Origin: Herbidospora daliensis
Lineage (GTDB): Bacteria > Actinomycetota > Actinomycetes > Streptosporangiales > Streptosporangiaceae
Direction of reading: 5' to 3'
DNA length: 64,000 nt
Assembly: GCF_001570585.1 (NCBI RefSeq)
Contig: NZ_BBXF01000009.1
Coordinates: forward strand, 124,001 to 188,000
Part shown: piece by piece, positions 6,279 to 25,095 of the stretch
Position numbering within the stretch: the first letter of the stretch is position 1
Layout of the letters: each line of letters opens with the position of its first letter
Notes under the pieces: model-generated
The model's input: only the letters and a program-made list of their open reading frames with translations
Database searches by the model: none
Told to the model about the DNA's origin: nothing
Program-made: the position numbers and the translations under genes

Positions 6279-6338
6279 GGCCGGTCCTCGGTAGTGGCCC
6301 CCGGTCGACGCGACCGGGCGCTTCGATCGAAGACCGGC
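6279..6338 (+). promoter_or_regulatory. Nested hairpins in the pnp leader
   Basis: An outer pair GCCGGTC (6280-6286) / GACCGGC (6332-6338) encloses a perfect inner hairpin CCCGGTCG (6300-6307) / CGACCGGG (6311-6318). In other bacteria the pnp leader is cut by RNase III inside a long stem as part of PNPase autoregulation; this structure is a candidate for the same control. Fold seen in sequence, role inferred. Confidence 0.45.
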
Positions 6339-14545: not shown

Positions 14546-15412
14546 GGTCTCGGCACCGCCCTCGCCGCCGTCGGCGTGCTCGCCTTCTCCGGCTCGATGC
14601 CCGCCACCGTGTACGCCATGCGCGGCCTCGACCCCTTCCTGGTCGCCATCGGCCGCGCCGTGCTCGCCCTGGTGGTGGCCCTGGGCTTCCTCCTGATCGC
14701 GCGGGCCCCGCTGCTGCCGCCCCGCCGCGACCTCGGGTCCTACGCCGTCATCGCCCTCGGCGTCGTCTTCGGCTTCCCCGTCTTCAGCGGCCTGGCCCTC
14801 TACGGGGGCGCGTCCACCTCCCACTCGGCCGTGGTCATCGGCCTGCTCCCGGCCGCCACCGCCGTCGTCGCGGTGCTGCGCGCCGGGGAACGCCCCCGGG
14901 CGGCCTTCTGGCTCGCCAGCGCCCTGGGGGCGTCGTCGATCACCGTCTTCACGCTGTCGCGCGGCGGCGGCCATTTCACCACGGCCGACCTGCTGCTCGT
15001 GCTGGCCCTCGGCTCGGCCGCCGTCGGCTACACCGAGGGGGCCCGGCTGACCCGGACCACCCCCGGCTGGCGGGTCATCTCCTACGCGCTCGTCGTGGCC
15101 GCCCCGCTGACGGTCCCGCTGACCGGCTGGCTCGCCCTCACGACGCAGCCGGTCTTCACGGGCGAGTCGGTCTCCGGCCTCCTCTACACCGGCCTCGTCT
15201 CCATGTACCTCGGCTTCATCCCCTGGTACGCCGGCCTCGCCCGGGGCGGGATCGCCCGAGCGGGCCAGACCCAGCTCGCTCAGCCGCTGCTGACGCTGGC
15301 CTGGGCGGTCCTGCTGCTGGGCGAACCCTTCGACCCCTGGACGATCGTGGCGGCCATGGCCGTGCTGGTCTGCGTGGCCGCCACCCAGCGCACCCGCGCT
15401 ATTCGAGCGTGA
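14471..15412 (+). CDS. EamA/DMT family transporter
   Basis: 313-residue membrane protein with about ten hydrophobic segments in the two-repeat EamA layout (second repeat from about residue 160; AQPLLTLAWAVLLLGEPF near the C-terminus is typical). Probable exporter of amino acids or related metabolites, consistent with control by the divergent MocR protein. ATG at 14471 chosen: the only in-frame start before the first membrane segment, with TATCGT 5 nt upstream. It ends 14 bp inside the convergent GH43 gene. Confidence 0.88.
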   Translation: MRTKSSAIAPTKVASSRSTERLDSAGLGTALAAVGVLAFSGSMPATVYAMRGLDPFLVAIGRAVLALVVALGFLLIARAPLLPPRRDLGSYAVIALGVVFGFPVFSGLALYGGASTSHSAVVIGLLPAATAVVAVLRAGERPRAAFWLASALGASSITVFTLSRGGGHFTTADLLLVLALGSAAVGYTEGARLTRTTPGWRVISYALVVAAPLTVPLTGWLALTTQPVFTGESVSGLLYTGLVSMYLGFIPWYAGLARGGIARAGQTQLAQPLLTLAWAVLLLGEPFDPWTIVAAMAVLVCVAATQRTRAIRA

Positions 15413-16811
15413 ACGTGGCGCTGCTCTGGAAGGCCGACGTGCCGTCGTTCTGCTCGACCCAGACCAGGCCCGACCGGTGGCGCAGGTAGTAGCCGGGGAA
15501 GTTGACCGACTCGTAGGAGACCCCGCCGCCGGTCAGCCCGGTGCGCCGGTAGAACGACGCGTCGGAGCGGAACAGCGAGGAGTTGTCGTTGCGCTCCACC
15601 CAGGCCTCGTGGTTGCGGTGCCGCAGGAAGTAACCGGGGAAGTTGGTCGACTCCAGCGACACCGTGCCCGACCCGGTCAGCCCGGTGACCTGCCGGAACT
15701 GGCTGTCGGCCAGCGGCGTCACGTTGGTCTCCAGCCTGACCCGGTACTCCCAGTGGCGAACCGCGTAGTTGCCCGACATGAGCCGCACCGGGGTGGCGCC
15801 GTCCGGTACGGGAATGCCGAAGTCGGGCGTGCCGTCGGCCCGCCAGTAGATCTTCTGCACCCGCGTCCGCCGGTTCGGGTCGTTCAGCGGATCGCCGGAG
15901 ATGTTCTGGTACGACCGGTCGTGGTAGACGAGCAGGTCGCTCTGGCCGTCCTCCGAGACGGTGAAGGAGTTGTGGCCGGGGCCGTACTGGCTGGTCTGCG
16001 AGCTCGACACGAAGACCGGGTTGGCGCTCTTCGTCCACGACGCGGCGTTGAGGGGGTCGGCCGACGCCGAGGCGGTCAGCAGGCCGAGACAGTAGTTCGC
16101 GTCGGTGGCGCTGGCCGAATAGGTCATGAACAACCGCCCGTTGCGCTGGATCACCGACGGCCCCTCGGCCACCCGGTAGCCCCGGGTCTCCCACGACAGG
16201 GTCGGGATCGTCAGCCGGGTGGTGTTCCCGGTGATCTGCCACGGGTTGCTGCCCATGCGGGCGATGTACAGGTTGGAGTTGGTCGAGATGCCCGGCTCCG
16301 CCTGCGCCCAGATCAGGTAGCGGATGTTGTTGTGGACGAAGGTCGAGGCGTCGAGCGAGAAGGTGTCCCACGGAGTGTAGATGCGGCCGCGTTCGGTCCA
16401 CGAGCCGGTCAGCGGGTTGGCCGCGGTGCTCTCCAGGACGTACATGCGGATGCGCCAGACGTCGTCGGTGCGGCCGGCGGCGAAGTAGACGTACCAGCGG
16501 CCGTTGATGAAGTGGATCTCGGGCGCCCAGATGTGCGCGCCCATCTCACCCGAGCTGTGCTTGCGCCAGATGACCGTCTCCGGCGCGCTCGCCAGCCCCT
16601 GGATGGTGGTCGCGCGGCGCAGCACGATGCGGTCGTACTCGGGCGCCGTCGCGGTGAAGTAGTAGTAGCCGTCGGTGTGCTTGAAGATGTGCGGGTCGGC
16701 GCGCTGCGCCGCGATCGGGTTGGAGTACTGCACGGCCGGGCTGGCCTGCGCCGGCAACGGCATCAGGAGCAGCAGCGTCGCCACGGCGACGACCAGGCGT
16801 AACAGGCGCAT
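15399..16811 (-). CDS. Secreted GH43 glycosidase with C-terminal AbfB (CBM42) domain
   Basis: 470 residues, probable alpha-L-arabinofuranosidase or related arabinan/arabinoxylan enzyme. Signal peptide MRLLRLVVAVATLLLLMPLP then AQAS. The five-bladed GH43 core shows the base Asp in AQRADPHIF, the pKa-modulating Asp in FSLDASTF and the acid Glu in VAEGPSVIQ. About residues 335-470 are an AbfB beta-trefoil with repeated NFPGYFLRH / NFPGYYLRH motifs, which binds arabinose side chains. Start set at the signal peptide Met. It follows a second GH43-AbfB gene by 11 bp, forming an operon. Confidence 0.92.
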   Translation of the reverse strand: MRLLRLVVAVATLLLLMPLPAQASPAVQYSNPIAAQRADPHIFKHTDGYYYFTATAPEYDRIVLRRATTIQGLASAPETVIWRKHSSGEMGAHIWAPEIHFINGRWYVYFAAGRTDDVWRIRMYVLESTAANPLTGSWTERGRIYTPWDTFSLDASTFVHNNIRYLIWAQAEPGISTNSNLYIARMGSNPWQITGNTTRLTIPTLSWETRGYRVAEGPSVIQRNGRLFMTYSASATDANYCLGLLTASASADPLNAASWTKSANPVFVSSSQTSQYGPGHNSFTVSEDGQSDLLVYHDRSYQNISGDPLNDPNRRTRVQKIYWRADGTPDFGIPVPDGATPVRLMSGNYAVRHWEYRVRLETNVTPLADSQFRQVTGLTGSGTVSLESTNFPGYFLRHRNHEAWVERNDNSSLFRSDASFYRRTGLTGGGVSYESVNFPGYYLRHRSGLVWVEQNDGTSAFQSSATFTLE

Positions 16812-16822
16812 GACGGGTCCTC

Positions 16823-18082
16823 TCAGGCCAGCGGGCTGGTCACGGTGAACGCCGTGCCGGTCGAATCGAGCCGCAGGCTGCCGTTCAGGAACTTCCCAGG
16901 CAGGTTGTACGACTCCAGCAGCGCCCCCCGCGCGCAGAAGGTGGCGTCGCCGCGGAAGATCGCCGAGCCGTCGTTCCGCTGCAGGACCAGCTGCATGTTG
17001 TAGTGGCGCAGGTAGTAGCCCGGGAAGTTGATCGCCTGGAACGAGTAGCACCCGGAATGCGCCAGCCCGGATCCGACCGTGAACGTGGAGTCCTGCCGCG
17101 CCAGCAGCGCACTGCTGGAGGAGACGTTCTCCAGATAGGCGACGTAGTCGCGGTGCCGCACGTAGAGCGACCCCGCCCGCAGCGACCGGTTGCCGGTCGG
17201 CAGCGCGGTCGTGTCACCGGAGTCCTCCCGCAGCACGGTGAAGTGCCGGGCCGTCCCGGAGAGCCCGGACAGTTCGGTCCGGGACGAGAAACTCGACAGG
17301 TTGGAGCTGTCGGCGTAGTAGTAACGCCCGCCCGAATAGTTGTCGAAGTAGAGCCGCCACCGGTTGTCCGGCAACCGCACCAGCGCGGGCCCTTCGAGCC
17401 CCGACCCCCACCCGGCCCAGTTGCCTGTGCCGACGAACGTCCAAGGCCCGTTGAGACTGGTGGACGTGGCATGCTCGATGTACTTGGTCGTCTCGTTCTT
17501 CAGGAAATTGTGATAAACACCGTCGACCTTGACGATGAAACTGTCGATGTAATTGGCCGGAATTCCGAGCGCCGTCGCCGACGACCACGATGACAACGCC
17601 GAATTGGTGGCCGTGATGCGATAGGGCCGGAACTGGCCCGCCGTCCCGGTCGTCGACGCCGAGAAGACGACATGCACACTCCCGTCGGAGTCGCGGAACC
17701 ACTCGGGCGCCCAGGTGCTGCCCGTCGACCCGTTCAGGCCCACGACGACGTTGCGCTGGAACGTCCAGGTCACGGCGTCGGCACTGCGCGCGAACCCGAT
17801 CGTGTTGCCCGTCCAGCCGGTCGTGTAGACGAGGTGGTAGTAGCCGTCGGTGTGCTTGATGACGCTCGGGTCGCGGATCAGGCCTGACGGGGGTGTGTAG
17901 GCGTTGGCCCTGATCAGGTTGTAGTTGGCGGCGTTGTTGGAGTCGTAGACGTACATGTTCGACTCACTGGCGTTGGTGAAGGCCGTCATCAGGTAGTGCG
18001 GGGCGGGGCCGGCGGCGTTGGCCGGGGTGGGCTGGAGGACGACGGCGATGAGGAGGAGGGGGAGCAGCACTCTTCTGAGCAT
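16823..18082 (-). CDS. Secreted GH43-like glycosidase with C-terminal AbfB domain
   Basis: 419 residues. Signal peptide MLRRVLLPLLLIAVVLQPTP then ANA. Core motifs IRDPSVIKHTDGYYHLVY, TWAPEWFRD, YIDSFIVKVDG and LEGPALVRL supply the Asp, Asp and Glu expected of GH43-type propellers. The C-terminal 130 residues are an AbfB domain with NFPGYYLRH. First gene of the two-gene arabinosidase operon; a palindromic LacI-type operator lies 13 bp upstream of the start. Specificity between arabinan and arabinoxylan cannot be told. Confidence 0.88.
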   Translation of the reverse strand: MLRRVLLPLLLIAVVLQPTPANAAGPAPHYLMTAFTNASESNMYVYDSNNAANYNLIRANAYTPPSGLIRDPSVIKHTDGYYHLVYTTGWTGNTIGFARSADAVTWTFQRNVVVGLNGSTGSTWAPEWFRDSDGSVHVVFSASTTGTAGQFRPYRITATNSALSSWSSATALGIPANYIDSFIVKVDGVYHNFLKNETTKYIEHATSTSLNGPWTFVGTGNWAGWGSGLEGPALVRLPDNRWRLYFDNYSGGRYYYADSSNLSSFSSRTELSGLSGTARHFTVLREDSGDTTALPTGNRSLRAGSLYVRHRDYVAYLENVSSSSALLARQDSTFTVGSGLAHSGCYSFQAINFPGYYLRHYNMQLVLQRNDGSAIFRGDATFCARGALLESYNLPGKFLNGSLRLDSTGTAFTVTSPLA

Positions 18083-18094
18083 GTGGGGTCCATC

Positions 18095-18108
18095 TGTTAT
18101 CGCTAACA
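18095..18108. promoter_or_regulatory. LacI-family-type operator before the arabinosidase operon
   Basis: TGTTATCGCTAACA has matching TGTTA/TAACA arms around the TCGC centre and resembles the TGTTAGCGCTAACA-class operators of streptomycete LacI-type sugar regulators. No LacI gene lies next to it, so the regulator is elsewhere. A further half-site (GGCTAAC) follows at about 18121. Confidence 0.55.
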
Positions 18109-18121
18109 TTCGGATCTCATG

Positions 18122-18745
18122 GCTAACCCGGAGGGGCGGGCCTGTCAACGGGGACCTTGTGTATTTGCAGGTGGCGGGTGGGGTGGGCTTGAAACTTTCG
18201 CTGCGTGGTGTTGTCTGGGTGACATGTGCTGGATTTGAGGGGCGGTTTTCTCTTTGTGTGGCGGAATTGTTTCGTGCTGGGGTTTGGATCATTGGCGTTG
18301 TCGATAGTCGGAATATCGGTGGTGGCGATGCTTGGAGAGCGCGAACGGGGTGGGCGGCATTGTCGGCCCTGTGGCAGTTGTCAGGGGGGCACGCGCCCGC
18401 CGGGATGGGCGGTGCGGTTGCGATTCGCCCAATGGGGCTGTGCGGTCAGTGGCCCGCTGGATAGCTGGAAGGAACCCCCTGGCCCACCGCCCGGAACGGG
18501 CCTGCGCTTTCGATGAGTTCGGACTTCGGGCATCGGCCCCATCGCCGGAGCAAGCTGAGCCGAGCGGGGGCCGTTCGGGCCGGTGGTCGGCCACTTACCG
18601 GCGCACCCAGGGGATCACCTATTTCCGCGGCTGCTCCTCCGCTGGCGATGACCTGCTCGGGGTGTCAACTGGCGATGCTGAGGCACGATCACACCTGGGT
18701 CGCGCTCCGGTCGATCCCTGCGGCCAGCCCGGACGGCGTCTCCTT
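18122..18745. other. Gene-poor stretch, no gene seen
   Basis: Lower GC than the surroundings in its first 250 bases. Short open frames exist on both strands but have no start signals, no recognisable domain and no consistent codon use. Probably degenerate sequence next to the transposase remnant. Confidence 0.5.
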
Positions 18746-19583: not shown

Positions 19584-20040
19584 GGGTCAAAACGGTGCCG
19601 GCGTCAACCTGGAGACGTCACTGGGCTACCTGCTGAAAGAGGCGTCGAATGCCCTCCGCGTAGCCATGGAAGAGGTGCTGCGGCCGCTCGGGATGAGCGT
19701 GACCCACTACTCCTGCCTCGAACTGCTGGCTCAACGACCGGGCCTGTCCAACTCCGAGCTCGCGCGCGGCGCGTTCGTGACACGGCAATCGATGAACGTG
19801 CTGCTCCAGGCCCTGGAACGAGATGGCTACGTGACCAGGCCCGCCGAGGCCCCCATCGGGAAGGCGCTCCCCGCGCGACTCACGCCCCGAGGCCGCCGGA
19901 GCCTCGAGAAGGCGACCGCGGCGGTCCGGGCGGTCGAGCTCAGAATGCTGGCCGGCATGACCGAGACCCAGCAGTCGGACGCATCCCGGCTCCTGAAGAG
20001 CATGATCGACTCTCTGCACAGCAGCGACGAGGCTACCTAG
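19582..20040 (+). CDS. MarR family transcriptional regulator
   Basis: 152 residues. Winged-helix core with MSVTHYSCLELLAQRPGLSNSELA and the recognition helix region FVTRQSMNVLLQALERDGYV, then the wing (PARLTPRGRR). The ATG at 19582 is chosen over an upstream in-frame start because the latter lies inside operator 1. Divergent from the VOC gene; two perfect palindromes in the gap indicate joint and autoregulatory control. Ligand unknown. Confidence 0.92.
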   Translation: MGQNGAGVNLETSLGYLLKEASNALRVAMEEVLRPLGMSVTHYSCLELLAQRPGLSNSELARGAFVTRQSMNVLLQALERDGYVTRPAEAPIGKALPARLTPRGRRSLEKATAAVRAVELRMLAGMTETQQSDASRLLKSMIDSLHSSDEAT

Positions 20041-20845: not shown

Positions 20846-21373
20846 TCACAAGCCGTTCTGGCGGGAGGCTGGAGTCGAGCGCTTCGGTTTGGGCCACTTC
20901 TCGCGGGCCGTCGCGTACGTCCCTCGATAGGGCACCGTGAACACGTACCCCTGTTTGCGCAGGGTCGCGATCGCCTGCCGCACGGTCGCCTTGGCCACGC
21001 CGTGTTCGGCCATCAGGGCTTTCTCGCTCGGCAGGGCGCGGTTGGCCGGGAACTCGCCTGAGCGGATCTTCTCCGACAGGACCTTCGCGATCAGCTGGTA
21101 GACGGGGAGCTCCGACCGCGGGGTGTCGGGCGTGCCCACGAAGGTGCCCTCTCCCTGGATCGTGTAGGCGAGGCCCTGGTCGCGCAGTTCGCGGGCCACC
21201 CGGCGGGCGGTCATGCGGGCGACGTTGTATTCGGCTTCGAGTTCCGCCTCGCTGGGGATGGCGTCGCCGGGGCTCAGCTCGCCTTCGGCGATCTTCCGCC
21301 GGAGCTCCTCGGCTATCTGCTTGTAGACCGGCACGGGTCCCTCTCGGTCGAGCATCTTCGTATCGTAGACCAA
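20846..21373 (-). CDS. Tandem GntR double winged-helix protein without effector domain
   Basis: 175 residues made of two consecutive GntR-type winged helices: about 10-78 (PVYKQIAEELRRKIAEGELS, then ARMTARRVARELRDQGL) and 88-158 (PVYQLIAKVLSEKIRSGEF, then AKATVRQAIATLRKQGY), followed by a short basic tail. No FCD, UTRA or other ligand domain. It could bind DNA as a monomer or sense nothing itself. The start is either the ATG at 21373 or the Met at 21355 (MLDREGPVPVYKQ); neither has a good ribosome-binding site. Confidence 0.85.
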   Translation of the reverse strand: MVYDTKMLDREGPVPVYKQIAEELRRKIAEGELSPGDAIPSEAELEAEYNVARMTARRVARELRDQGLAYTIQGEGTFVGTPDTPRSELPVYQLIAKVLSEKIRSGEFPANRALPSEKALMAEHGVAKATVRQAIATLRKQGYVFTVPYRGTYATAREKWPKPKRSTPASRQNGL

Positions 21374-21449: not shown

Positions 21450-22109
21450 TTAAGAAACACGGCGCCACTTGGTGTCGGTGACCACGAGGTGATCGAGGAA
21501 GGTGAGGCCAACGATGTCGGAAGCGTGCCGCAGGTGGTCGGTCGAGGCCACGTCGGCGGGGCTGGGCTCGATGGAGCCGCTCGGGTGGTTGTGTGCGACC
21601 CCGAACGCCGCCCCTCCCGAGGTCAGCACCGCCGTGATCACGTCGCGGACAGGCAGCGAGGTGTGGTCGCTCCCGCCCTCGGTGAGCACCAGCTGGCGGA
21701 GCACCCCGCCGGCGGCGTCGCACACGACCAGGACCAGGCGCTCCTTCGTCTGCTCCCGCAGGAGCGGGGCCACCAGGGCGGCGAGGTCGGCGGAGGAGGT
21801 GATGCGCAATGGGCCGGGGCCGGTTTGCGAGCGACGTACAAGATGAAAGGCGGCGGCGACCCGGGCGGCCTTGGCGGGCCCGACCCCCGGAACGCTGAGC
21901 AGCCGATGCGGCTCCGAACGCGCGAGTTCGCCGAGATCGCCGCAGTGGGAGATCACCCGCGAGGCGAGCTCGACGGCGCTCATGCCGCGGCTGCCTGATC
22001 CGAGAAGTATGGCCAGTAGTTCACGATCGGCCAGAGCGTTTCCTCCCTTCTCCAGCAAACGCTCACGTGGCTGATCGCCAGCCGCCATGTCCTTGACCCG
22101 CAACCCCAT
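21450..22109 (-). CDS. radC: RadC family JAB1/MPN+ domain protein
   Basis: 219 residues from the ATG at 22109 (a GTG at 22133 would add 8). N-terminal UPF0758 HhH region with DQPRERLLEKGGNALADRELLAILL and VPGVGPAKAARVAAAF; C-terminal MPN+ metalloprotease-like domain with the zinc motif HNHPSGSIEPSPADVASTD. Despite the name, a direct DNA-repair role is not established for the family. It borders the gene-poor stretch with repeats, and RadC proteins are often found near mobile DNA. Confidence 0.92.
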   Translation of the reverse strand: MGLRVKDMAAGDQPRERLLEKGGNALADRELLAILLGSGSRGMSAVELASRVISHCGDLGELARSEPHRLLSVPGVGPAKAARVAAAFHLVRRSQTGPGPLRITSSADLAALVAPLLREQTKERLVLVVCDAAGGVLRQLVLTEGGSDHTSLPVRDVITAVLTSGGAAFGVAHNHPSGSIEPSPADVASTDHLRHASDIVGLTFLDHLVVTDTKWRRVS

Positions 22110-22224
22110 GACGCTCGTTTTACCATCACCCACCGACGTTCTTGCGGTGCCCGCATTTGTCCATCCGATTTGTGGCTGGAAGTGGTTGATGTCCCGGGCG
22201 TGGATGTGACGCGATTTCCCTGAT

Positions 22225-22242
22225 TAGAACGACATTGTTCTA
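22225..22242. promoter_or_regulatory. 18-bp palindrome TAGAAC-N6-GTTCTA
   Basis: Perfect 6-bp arms around GACATT, 92 bp upstream of the longest possible radC start. It resembles a protein-binding site but the 6-bp spacer does not fit the 4-bp spacer of the Gram-positive SOS box. Confidence 0.35.
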
Positions 22243-22605
22243 CCAGGACGCCCTGTTGCCTCGTTCGCGATAGTATGTCTGCGTCACTACCGGCTGGGTC
22301 TGTTTGCGCTGTTCTCTGGGTGTTTCTGTACGACCTGGCTGAGGCCGGGAAGCTTGTCGCGCGCCGGCGTTGAGGGCATGAAGATGCTCTCCGCAAGGCT
22401 GAATTGACCGCCGAACCCCGTTATGTGGCGCTTTGGTTGAGTCTCGAGCGACGGGATCTATCGCCTGCAGAAAATGGACGCCGCCTTCGGTTCCCCTGCC
22501 TACTTCGGATGACTTTGCGCCTCTTTCGGGAAAATCGTATTTGTCGGTCTTCGTGAGCCACCTGCACAAAATCGTCAACCGCCTGTGTCGAATCGCCCCA
22601 AAGCA

Positions 22606-22688
22606 CTCGCCGCCCCACATCGCCCCCACTCGTGGAGCGGCGAGCGGCCGGTCGCTGGAACGCACGAGGGATAGTTCCAGCGACCGGC
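22606..22688. repeat. Double-hairpin element, copy 1
   Basis: Stem A CTCGCCGC (22606-22613) / GCGGCGAG (22637-22644), 2-nt linker, then stem B GCCGGTCGCTGGAA (22647-22660) / TTCCAGCGACCGGC (22675-22688), 14 bp with a 14-nt loop. Same architecture as copies 2 and 3 with compensatory changes, which supports a conserved fold rather than chance. Confidence 0.65.
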
Positions 22689-22778
22689 ACACCTCTTGCG
22701 ACATCGGCGCAGGCTCGATGACGCTCGCTCGGTGCCGCCGAGTTGCTCGGCGGTGCCGAAGAGGAGGTCCTTCAGGCG

Positions 22779-22854
22779 CTCACCACCTGCCCTGCCTTGC
22801 CGGGTGGTGAGAGGGCCGGCCGCTGGAACGCAACGGCAGCTTCCAGCGGCCGGT
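22779..22854. repeat. Double-hairpin element, copy 2
   Basis: Stem A CTCACCACC (22779-22787) / GGTGGTGAG (22803-22811), 3-nt linker, stem B GCCGGCCGCTGGAA (22815-22828) / TTCCAGCGGCCGGT (22841-22854, last pair a wobble). Relative to copy 1, two stem A pairs and one stem B pair have changed on both sides. Confidence 0.65.
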
Positions 22855-23119
22855 TGACCTTCGGGTGGGGCCGTGGCTGAGGATCGATGGGTTCGCTGCG
22901 GCTCGGGGACTGGTGAGGAACTGGGTGGCCGGTTGTTGCTGAAGGTCCGAGGCGAACTGTCTGGAAGCTGAGAGCGCGGGTTAGAAGGGCGCACTGTAGA
23001 GGACGTCAACGGCCGGGCTCTGCTTTGTGGCGACACGTGCGTTCTGACGCCTGAGCTCACATTTCTCCGAAGCCCGCAACATCCGCAGCCATACGATCGA
23101 CATCGGACACCGTGCTCTC

Positions 23120-23420
23120 GGCGGGAAGGTTCGGTAGGCGTGTAGTGCCTGCCAGAAGGCTCGACAGGCATGTCAGAAGCGGGTCGACGTGCACGCAGCT
23201 GCGCCCGGCTGGTTTGTAATGCCCGCGTGCTAGCTCGACCGGCAAGTCGAGGGGCTACGTGACAGACATGTGGGGGGTACCGTCGGGAGCGTCCCGCAGG
23301 CATGCATGACAGGGATGCAGCACAAGCGCACACGCTCGACAAAGGCGCTCGCCAGCCGTGCAGAACAGGTATGCGACGCCTGCACGCATGCTTGGTGAGA
23401 TGCACGACTGGCATGCGTAG
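23120..23420. repeat. Degenerate short tandem repeats
   Basis: On the minus strand TGCCGGTCGAGC...GGGCATTACA and TGCCTGTCGAGC...AGGCACTACA recur 72 bp apart near 23245 and 23173. Variants of GACAGGCATG recur on the plus strand near 23163, 23261, 23308, 23364 and 23405. Decayed repeats of unclear unit length. Confidence 0.35.
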
Positions 23421-23724
23421 ATCGCAGGGCCTTCCATGTGCCTATCGGCGGTATGGCCTGCACCATCCCTGGCGAGGCCGATGTGCGTGAGGGAGCAGCT
23501 CTGGCGATTAGGCCAGAGAAACTCGCTGCGGCTTCCCACGCCGCAGGCTTTCAGTTGCGACAGATGGCCAGGGTGAGGGGCTGGGGAACGCTCCGATCTG
23601 TTCGGCCTGGACCAGCGCGCCGCTTGTTGGAGCTTTCCTGTCGTTCGCTGGCGCTACATGCAGCCCCGTCGACGTGAAGGACTTCTTCTACGTCAGTTCC
23701 AAGCCCGGTGCTCCACCACAAGCT

Positions 23725-23803
23725 CTCACCGCTCGTGACTCCGTGCACTTGAGCGGTGAGGGGCCGGTCCCTGGTACCTATCGGGAGGTTCCGGCGACCG
23801 GCC
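23725..23803. repeat. Double-hairpin element, copy 3
   Basis: Stem A CTCACCGCTC (23725-23734) / GAGCGGTGAG (23751-23760), 1-nt linker, stem B GGCCGGTC-C-CTGG (23762-23774) / CCGG-C-GACCGGCC (23791-23803) with one C x C mismatch and one wobble. About 870 bp from copy 2, same orientation and spacing. Confidence 0.6.
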
Positions 23804-23806
23804 GCA

Positions 23807-23923
23807 TCAGCACACCTGGGCACGCTCGGCTGGGCCGATGAGGATGACAGTGCTTGCTCGGCGTGTCTCGATGCCGAAGTCTTCGAAGATCTGTTGACGG
23901 TTGTCATCCAGACCGACGAGGAC
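23807..23923 (-). pseudogene. Possible coding remnant, family unknown
   Basis: A 38-codon frame between stops reads VLVGLDDNRQQIFEDFGIET then RRASTVILIGPAERAQVC, which looks like genuine globular protein sequence rather than a shadow frame. It has no start codon and is cut by stops on both sides. Probably the last trace of a lost gene; no family assigned. Confidence 0.25.
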
Positions 23924-24372
23924 TCACTGACGAATCGAACGGGACCATCCACTCGCGGCGTGCATCAACCGGAGATGCGGCCTCGAAGGAACAGATTGCG
24001 GCTGAGTTCGAACACGACTGCGCGGGCGGGTTGCGGTCTGCCAGCCATGATGTGAGCGAAGCCGCCATGCCTCAGTGTGCGGCTGGCCTTACCTGCACCC
24101 GCTACAGAGAGACCAAAGTCGCCTTGGGACGTCGAGTCTGTTGGCCGGTGCTGCCGAACGAATGGATCACGCGACCAAGGGCCCCGCGCGCTGAATCGCG
24201 CCACCCACCGACCGGCGTGCCAGCCCGCTCACGTTCGGCGAACCCACTCCCGTCCAAGCCGCCGAGATGCATCACCTCAAGAGAGGAGCACAACGAAGTC
24301 GCGGGAACCCCACCGAAGCAGGTCCCCGCGACCCCGTCGTACACATCCCCGAAACCCGTTGGAAGGAGGGCC

Positions 24373-25095
24373 TCAGCGGCTCGGTTGTTCCCCGTAAGGA
24401 GCAGGAAGGGTGTAGACAAGCCGGAACTGGTCGCACGGAATGATCACGTCGCTGGTCTCCACGGGTTTGTCGCCCGCCCAGTGGGTGCGTTCCACGTGAA
24501 GTACGTGGACGCCGGCCGGAAGGTCCAGGACGTCGCTTTCCACGGGCTGAGGGACCCGTGCGTACACGTGCTCGGTCACCTCGGTCAGCTTCAGGCCGTT
24601 GCCGCCTAGGCGGTGGGCGACCTGGGTGATGTCGTCGGTGCCGTCGTTGTAGACGATGGGTTCGTACGACACCGCGAGCTGCACGGGTTTGCCGTCGCTG
24701 CGATAGACGATGCGCGTTCTCGTGACGGGGGATTGGGCGGCGATGCGCAGGCGTACGGCGATGTCTGGCCTGGCCTCGGCGGAATCGGTCTTGACGTCAC
24801 ACGTCGGGCGGCGCCCGACGGCGTGCATGTCGGTCGAGAAGTGGGCCTGTGCACGGTGGAGCGGGAGCAGGTCCGGCCGTTGACGGACCCGATGGCCCGA
24901 CCCGACGCGGCCGATGATCAGCCCTTCTTGGGCCAGCACTCGAAGCGCGTGGCGGGCGGCGGTTTCGCCGACGCCGTACTTCCGGGTGATCTGGTGCCGT
25001 GAGGGAATCGGCGCTCCGGGTTGCAACAGGCCTTCCGTTATCTGACGGCGGAGGTCTTCGACAACACGCAGGTAAACCGGATCGGAGTTGGCCAC
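24373..25095 (-). CDS. GntR/HutC-family regulator with UTRA domain
   Basis: 240 residues. N-terminal GntR winged helix (about 1-75, LQPGAPIPSRHQITRKYGVGETAARHALRVLAQEGL) and a C-terminal UTRA ligand domain (about 90-235, including RVPQPVESDVLDLPAGVHVL and the VIIPCDQFRLVY end). GTG start preceded by AAGGATGGATAA. Divergent by 119 bp from a HATPase gene, a pairing frequent in actinomycetes. Ligand unknown. Confidence 0.9.
   Translation of the reverse strand: MANSDPVYLRVVEDLRRQITEGLLQPGAPIPSRHQITRKYGVGETAARHALRVLAQEGLIIGRVGSGHRVRQRPDLLPLHRAQAHFSTDMHAVGRRPTCDVKTDSAEARPDIAVRLRIAAQSPVTRTRIVYRSDGKPVQLAVSYEPIVYNDGTDDITQVAHRLGGNGLKLTEVTEHVYARVPQPVESDVLDLPAGVHVLHVERTHWAGDKPVETSDVIIPCDQFRLVYTLPAPYGEQPSR

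Follow-up and report, generated by a model that had tools for sequence, protein, structure and literature searches.

A candidate structured RNA with repeated double-hairpin modules between radC and gntR in Herbidospora

We analysed a stretch of 64,000 nucleotides from Herbidospora daliensis, hereafter the window, which contains a gene-poor interval (22134–24372) between radC and a GntR/UTRA regulator gene (gntR). By its name radC is a gene of the DNA-repair type. It occupies 21450–22133 on the minus strand (UPF0758/RadC; Pfam PF04002, 4.4e-26) and is divergent from an array of double hairpins in the interval, and gntR (24373–25095, minus strand; Pfam PF07702 and PF00392) lies at the far end and reads towards the array. 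The probable radC promoter region (22117–22143, minus strand) is conserved across Herbidospora and reads GTCGGTG-N8-TAAAAC on the minus strand; a comparable stretch was seen by eye before radC in sister genera. This region resembles the RecA-NDp/PafBC DNA-damage promoter motif. A hairpin found by eye directly past the gntR stop codon (24297–24333, minus strand), inside a conserved block, is probably the terminator of gntR itself. On the plus strand, no likely gene end was found within 2.5 kb upstream of the double hairpins: marR has its end at 20040, and the frames that overlap radC run antisense to it. No sigma-70-type promoter was found in 22000–24500 and no tRNA or tmRNA in the 64-kb window; a Pfam scan of six neighbouring proteins revealed neither an integrase nor a mobile-element domain. 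At 20846–21373 on the minus strand lies the gene for a 175-aa protein in which Pfam detected two GntR DNA-binding stretches and no ligand domain; this protein was matched in all six other Herbidospora loci.

The original prediction had described three double hairpins in the same orientation, and all three are present on the plus strand. Each module is composed of a stem A, a few linking bases and a longer stem B. Double hairpin 1 (DH1, type 1; 22606–22688) has its stem A at 22606–22613/22637–22644 (CTCGCCGC/GCGGCGAG), with ATCGCCCCCAC in loop A, and its stem B at 22647–22661/22674–22688, where perfect 15-nt arms are separated by 12 nt. Double hairpin 2 (DH2, type 2; 22779–22854) has a stem A at 22779–22787/22803–22811 (CTCACCACC/GGTGGTGAG), a TGCC-rich loop A and a stem B of 13–14 nt at 22815–22828/22841–22854. 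In double hairpin 3 (DH3, type 3; 23725–23802), stem A (23725–23734/23751–23760; CTCACCGCTC/GAGCGGTGAG) is followed by a stem B of about 15 nt, from 23763 to 23802, which has two mismatches and one U-G, so that this copy is the least perfectly paired. No U run follows the modules. The paired changes that had been proposed between the copies, at stem A pairs 4 and 7 and at stem B pair 6 (T-A to C-G), are all real, and stem A pair 9 shows a further both-sided change between copies 2 and 3, yet is unpaired in copy 1. Compared with 200 dinucleotide shuffles, copies 1–3 gave z scores of -5.8, -3.8, and -4.7 on the plus strand and -6.3, -3.9, and -3.3 on the minus strand, and at most 2 of the 200 shuffles folded as well as any copy on either strand. 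Covariation in the three window copies alone is statistically weak, 11 of 500 shuffles reaching it.

To look for homologues we used one covariance model built from the three window copies alone (R1) and a second one built from 19 copies (R2). In the 8.5-Mb genome of H. daliensis, R1 gave ten matches, three of which were the window copies. The other seven consisted of these sites on the opposite strand (E 0.11, 0.16, and 2.6) and of places matched at the level of chance (E 1.9 and worse), and no other convincing copy was detected. When 149 genomes including that of H. daliensis were searched with R1, 12 matched at E ≤0.1. Six of these were the other Herbidospora genomes (H. yilanensis, H. sakaeratensis, H. 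cretacea, H. galbida, H. solisilvae, and H. mongoliensis), each with two or three copies at a single, syntenic location (best E per genome, 7.6e-11 to 5.1e-7). The search that the original prediction had called for thus yielded more homologues with covarying stems. The five matching genomes outside the genus (E 0.012–0.076) were rejected as chance; they are absent among the R2 matches at E 0.05. R2 matched nine of 341 genomes of the family, namely the seven Herbidospora genomes and two others with weak matches (E 0.004 and 0.034), which were set aside as chance and appeared by eye to be single stem-B-like hairpins. Among 394 genomes of the class, the two that matched were both Herbidospora. 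No convincing copy outside Herbidospora was therefore found in the 341 family and 394 class genomes, searches run with stricter filters that lose weak matches.

The order of the copies and the interval in which they lie are identical in all seven Herbidospora genomes. Types 1 and 2 are present in every one of them with starts 155–179 bp apart, and type 3 is present in five, 0.27–0.95 kb further along. In H. cretacea and H. galbida, which have two copies only, type 3 was not found even with the filters off, and H. mongoliensis carries a degenerate fourth module. The number of modules per genome thus ranges from two to four, and the array spans up to 1.5 kb. Loop sequences are typical of the module type and common to the species; there are three paralogous module types, orthologous between species.

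In the alignment of 19 copies from seven genomes, 95.0% of the 456 stem cells are paired, a value favoured by the fitting of this alignment to the covariance model; when the structure was slid by 1–3 columns, pairing was 57% at most. Covarying pairs across homologues, as expected of a structured noncoding RNA, were detected. Both-sided changes were counted in 28 cells, compared with 12.1 ± 2.7 in shuffles, and none of 500 shuffles reached 28. Two weaker measures were the number of pairs with a both-sided change, 7 of 24 where shuffles gave 5.1 (41 of 500 reaching it), and the number of further pair types, 17 where shuffles gave 16.2 (195 of 500). Inside one orthologous copy, both-sided changes were seen at stem A pair 4 in types 2 and 3 and at stem B pair 57–91 (columns of alignment A3) in type 3. 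The mean pairwise difference across the seven genomes was 0.02 in the stem-B arms and 0.11–0.15 in the loops of types 1 and 2, and 0.03 in the type 1 loop-A core, which is invariant in 10 of its 11 columns. The spacers gave 0.41 and 0.45 with about 20% gaps, about threefold the divergence of the type 1 and 2 loops. One stem-A arm differed by 0.31, probably due to a one-base shift in H. cretacea. The modules of the interval have been shaped by selection on folding.

Conserved DNA begins at the radC promoter region and extends to about 22860, and its part at 22189–22456 folds as two domains. Domain D1 (22189–22301, plus strand) has a long closing stem, GTGACGC.../...GCGTCAC, a hairpin CCTGATTAGAAC/GTTCTACCAGG and a hairpin with a TTCG loop; domain D2 occupies 22330–22456 on the plus strand. 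RNAalifold analysis of the whole block (columns 24–325 of alignment A5) gave z -3.98 on the plus strand, with none of 100 column shuffles as good, and z -1.21 on the minus strand, with 12 of 100 as good. D2 beat the shuffles on the plus strand only (z -4.71, compared with 0.12 on the minus strand), and D1 gave -4.66 and -2.06, respectively, the limits of both domains having been taken from the plus-strand fold. Single D1 sequences had a lower z on the plus than on the minus strand in seven of seven cases. Fixed windows over D1 were not specific to the plus strand (22144–22263, plus z 0.19 and minus z -2.00; 22204–22323, -1.94 and -2.85), and a fixed window over D2 was (-2.37 and 0.56). D1 contains one pair with a both-sided change. 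A D1 covariance model matched seven of the 341 family genomes, all Herbidospora and once each, and as a DNA query D1 was found in ten of the 149 genomes, the three from outside Herbidospora having 25–34 aligned bases. Conservation is poor in the spacer that separates D2 from the first module, so these two could be separate units.

When the sequences were compared with the window, the six relatives differed by 4–20% in DH1, 5–11% in DH2, 6–16% in D1 and 12–25% at the fourfold sites of radC; DH1 and DH2 were less different than the radC fourfold sites in six of six. The four relatives carrying type 3 differed in it by 5, 15, 17, and 26%, which is not clearly slower than the fourfold sites, and D2 differed by 9–31%, exceeding the fourfold sites in four of six relatives. 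A coding explanation of the interval was rejected. The window frames of at least 60 codons have mostly partial matches in the relatives, the one full-length match being on the minus strand over 22118–22420 in the nearest relative, H. sakaeratensis, and every reading frame from D1 to DH2 is interrupted by a stop in at least one of the seven genomes. One minus-strand frame of 37 codons over D1 has no stops in any of the seven, two of which have a one-base gap there; it could be due to chance or encode a short peptide upstream of radC.

Both strands of the double hairpins give strong folds (z -12.5 and -8.6), so that these modules by themselves do not fix the strand. On the plus strand, G-U cells outnumber C-A cells by 27 to 7, or by 11 to 5 when counted as distinct states (p 0.21). 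Over the 19 copies, loop A is 14–22 nt and mostly C-rich, and loop B, G-rich in the three types, is 11–23 nt with its closing pair and otherwise about 9 to 21 nt. The variable length of loop B is awkward for a DNA-binding dimer of fixed spacing. It is from the variable loop lengths, the excess of G-U over C-A and the plus-strand fold of the upstream block that we prefer a plus-strand RNA. A kissing contact within a copy, between its loops A and B, was also considered and rejected, since loops of one copy paired on average no better than loops of different types, and the 5% level of shuffled loops was reached in none of the 19 copies.

Comparison with known systems revealed no described family to which the modules belong. 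Rfam had no match in the interval when the whole window was searched at the gathering threshold, and at E 5 the region 22100–24400 gave five matches, to microRNAs, an IRES model and the Streptomyces sRNA scr5239, none of them anywhere near its cut-off. 6C RNA (RF01066) has a two-hairpin form with a C-rich run in both loops. It resembles the modules as a small actinobacterial RNA with C-rich loops (PMC9569102), but the modules have a C-rich loop A only and a G-rich loop B in the three types, are tandem units and occur in one genus; no Rfam 6C match appeared up to E 5, and this candidate was rejected. ANTAR-target RNAs likewise have two stem-loops joined by a linker, described in PMC8164766 as each bearing a hexanucleotide loop with A1 and G4. 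By this definition the modules, with a loop A of 14–22 nt and a loop B of 11–23 nt including its closing pair, were not assigned to this class: only hairpin B of type 3 closes a 6-nt loop (AUCGGG, with A1 and G4), in the window copy by folding and at two further loci (L041 and L042) by eye, and types 1 and 2 do not. Ms1, a structured intergenic 6S-like RNA of actinobacteria listed for Herbidospora too, adjoins an HAD hydrolase gene in most species, according to PMC9130861. It was rejected here, the neighbours being radC and gntR with no flanking HAD hydrolase. Among the literature matches listed for Herbidospora, or for Streptosporangi- together with noncoding RNA, none dealt with this locus by title.

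The main rival to an RNA with a function of its own is that the double hairpins are V-shaped tandem-hairpin intrinsic terminators or 3'-stabilising ends, DH1 and DH2 closing a plus-strand RNA that starts at D1 and DH3 serving as a back-up; we regard this as possible but unlikely. V-shaped tandem hairpins are described as a recognised though rare class that does terminate without a U tract, and two tandem hairpins after gyrA of M. smegmatis as terminating better than single ones (PMC8355165). Like these, the modules are two adjacent stable GC-rich hairpins without a following U run, and they lie on the 3' side of D1–D2; in addition, the single stem-B-like hairpins in two genomes of other genera stand beside apparent gene ends by eye. 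However, they do not follow a likely same-strand gene, and gntR, encoded on the opposite strand, is followed by a separate hairpin of its own (24297–24333). An array of as many as four modules, spread over up to 1.5 kb, exceeds the needs of termination, the lack of a U run itself tells against a terminator, and the conservation of the type 1 and 2 loops relative to the spacers, loops being conserved by type, would be left unexplained.

It is rather improbable that the palindromes act as DNA, as operator or cruciform sites for a dimeric protein such as the adjacent GntR or a nucleoid protein. Dyad symmetry kept by paired changes would also fit such sites, both strands fold, a DNA-binding regulator is encoded next door and the D1 hairpin is itself palindromic, but a loop B of about 9 to 21 nt would shift the helical phase between half sites, G-U is favoured over C-A on the plus strand, though weakly, and D2 beats the shuffles on the plus strand only. 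REP/REPIN elements are dispersed palindromic repeats with many copies in a genome. The modules are likewise palindromes in intergenic DNA, and double hairpins occur in mitochondrial DNA too (PMC2800124), but those elements are dispersed repeats and the modules are confined to one locus. The REP/MITE-type element that the original prediction had offered as one option was accordingly dropped: three copies exist in 8.5 Mb, all at one place that is the same in the seven Herbidospora genomes, and the next matches (E 0.11 and 0.16) are on the opposite strand of two of these sites. Nothing specific spoke for its other option, a recombination site, there being neither an integrase or mobile domain in the six neighbours nor a convincing plasmid or phage relative of DH1–DH2. 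In the plasmid and phage collections, matches to this stretch (22600–22870) covered at most 23% of the query, and no viral contig had the exact stem-B pattern, so a phage or plasmid origin of the stretch was rejected. We consider it very unlikely that the array is left over from a mobile or repetitive palindromic element, inserted between radC and gntR in the Herbidospora ancestor and then duplicated locally. The interval is 57–570 bp in seven of eight sister genera compared with 1.5–2.5 kb in Herbidospora, and eight of ten interval pieces measured are below the window mean in G+C, though this is usual for intergenic DNA. Against it stand the single location in 8.5 Mb, the same place in all seven genomes, the lack of such plasmid, phage or viral relatives and the slow change of types 1 and 2 since then. 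A mobile origin would not exclude a present RNA function.

The radC–gntR interval in Herbidospora thus probably encodes an undescribed structured RNA, as judged from conservation and pairing. Of the options in the original prediction, a structured RNA family is the one that fits best, with its homologues with covarying stems and a conserved folding block upstream, so that the earlier interpretation is supported in this part. More specifically, we propose a genus-specific structured noncoding RNA, on the plus strand and divergent from radC, with the double-hairpin modules in its 3' part, a proposal to which we give about an even chance. Such an RNA would be transcribed away from radC towards gntR. 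Its 5' part would consist of the two folded domains, D1 (22189–22301) and D2 (22330–22456), and its 3' part of the repeated modules: every one of the seven genomes has types 1 and 2, five also have type 3, and one has a degenerate fourth module. Both domains and the modules would belong to one RNA. Multi-hairpin regulatory RNAs present loops on stems to a protein or to target RNAs. The stiff stems and the conserved, type-specific loops suggest a similar role here, in which the modules may be recognition units that expose type-specific loops on rigid stems to a protein or target RNAs.

The array looks like part of a genus-specific expansion of the gap between radC and gntR. In a survey of 60 genomes, 19 had radC and 28 had a GntR match, and eight of the 12 radC genomes outside Herbidospora have a GntR gene nearby on the same strand. 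The gap between the two matches, whose ends are not always gene ends, is about 57, 58, 126, 150, 238, 343, and 570 bp in seven of these eight sister genera, whereas it is 1.5–2.5 kb in Herbidospora. The eighth (G034) has a gap of 2.9 kb with other reading frames inside, which by eye (L098) are like an aldo/keto reductase, a TetR regulator, and a hydrolase. Since other frames fill it in this genome, the gap receives insertions in more than one genus. In the eight sister-genus intervals, R2 gave no convincing match (best E 0.048). A more detailed scenario, which we consider doubtful, is that a modular regulatory RNA was born in the expanded gap in the ancestor of the genus and grew by module duplication, and that the copies then became specialised by loop, each loop type with a different partner.

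The locus is a new candidate structured RNA of narrow range and of a general kind already known. If transcribed, it would represent a young RNA family whose states before and after its appearance can be clearly compared, since most of the sister genera examined have little sequence between radC and gntR. Its tandem copies with fixed stems and type-specific loops would offer a view of how an RNA gains modules and how modules specialise, and Rfam would gain a candidate family with a ready covariance model. Elsewhere in the window, Rfam assigned an Actino-pnp cis-regulatory RNA at 6280–6338 (66.6 bits), and two adjoining GH43 glycosidases with AbfB domains are encoded at 15399–18292 on the minus strand.
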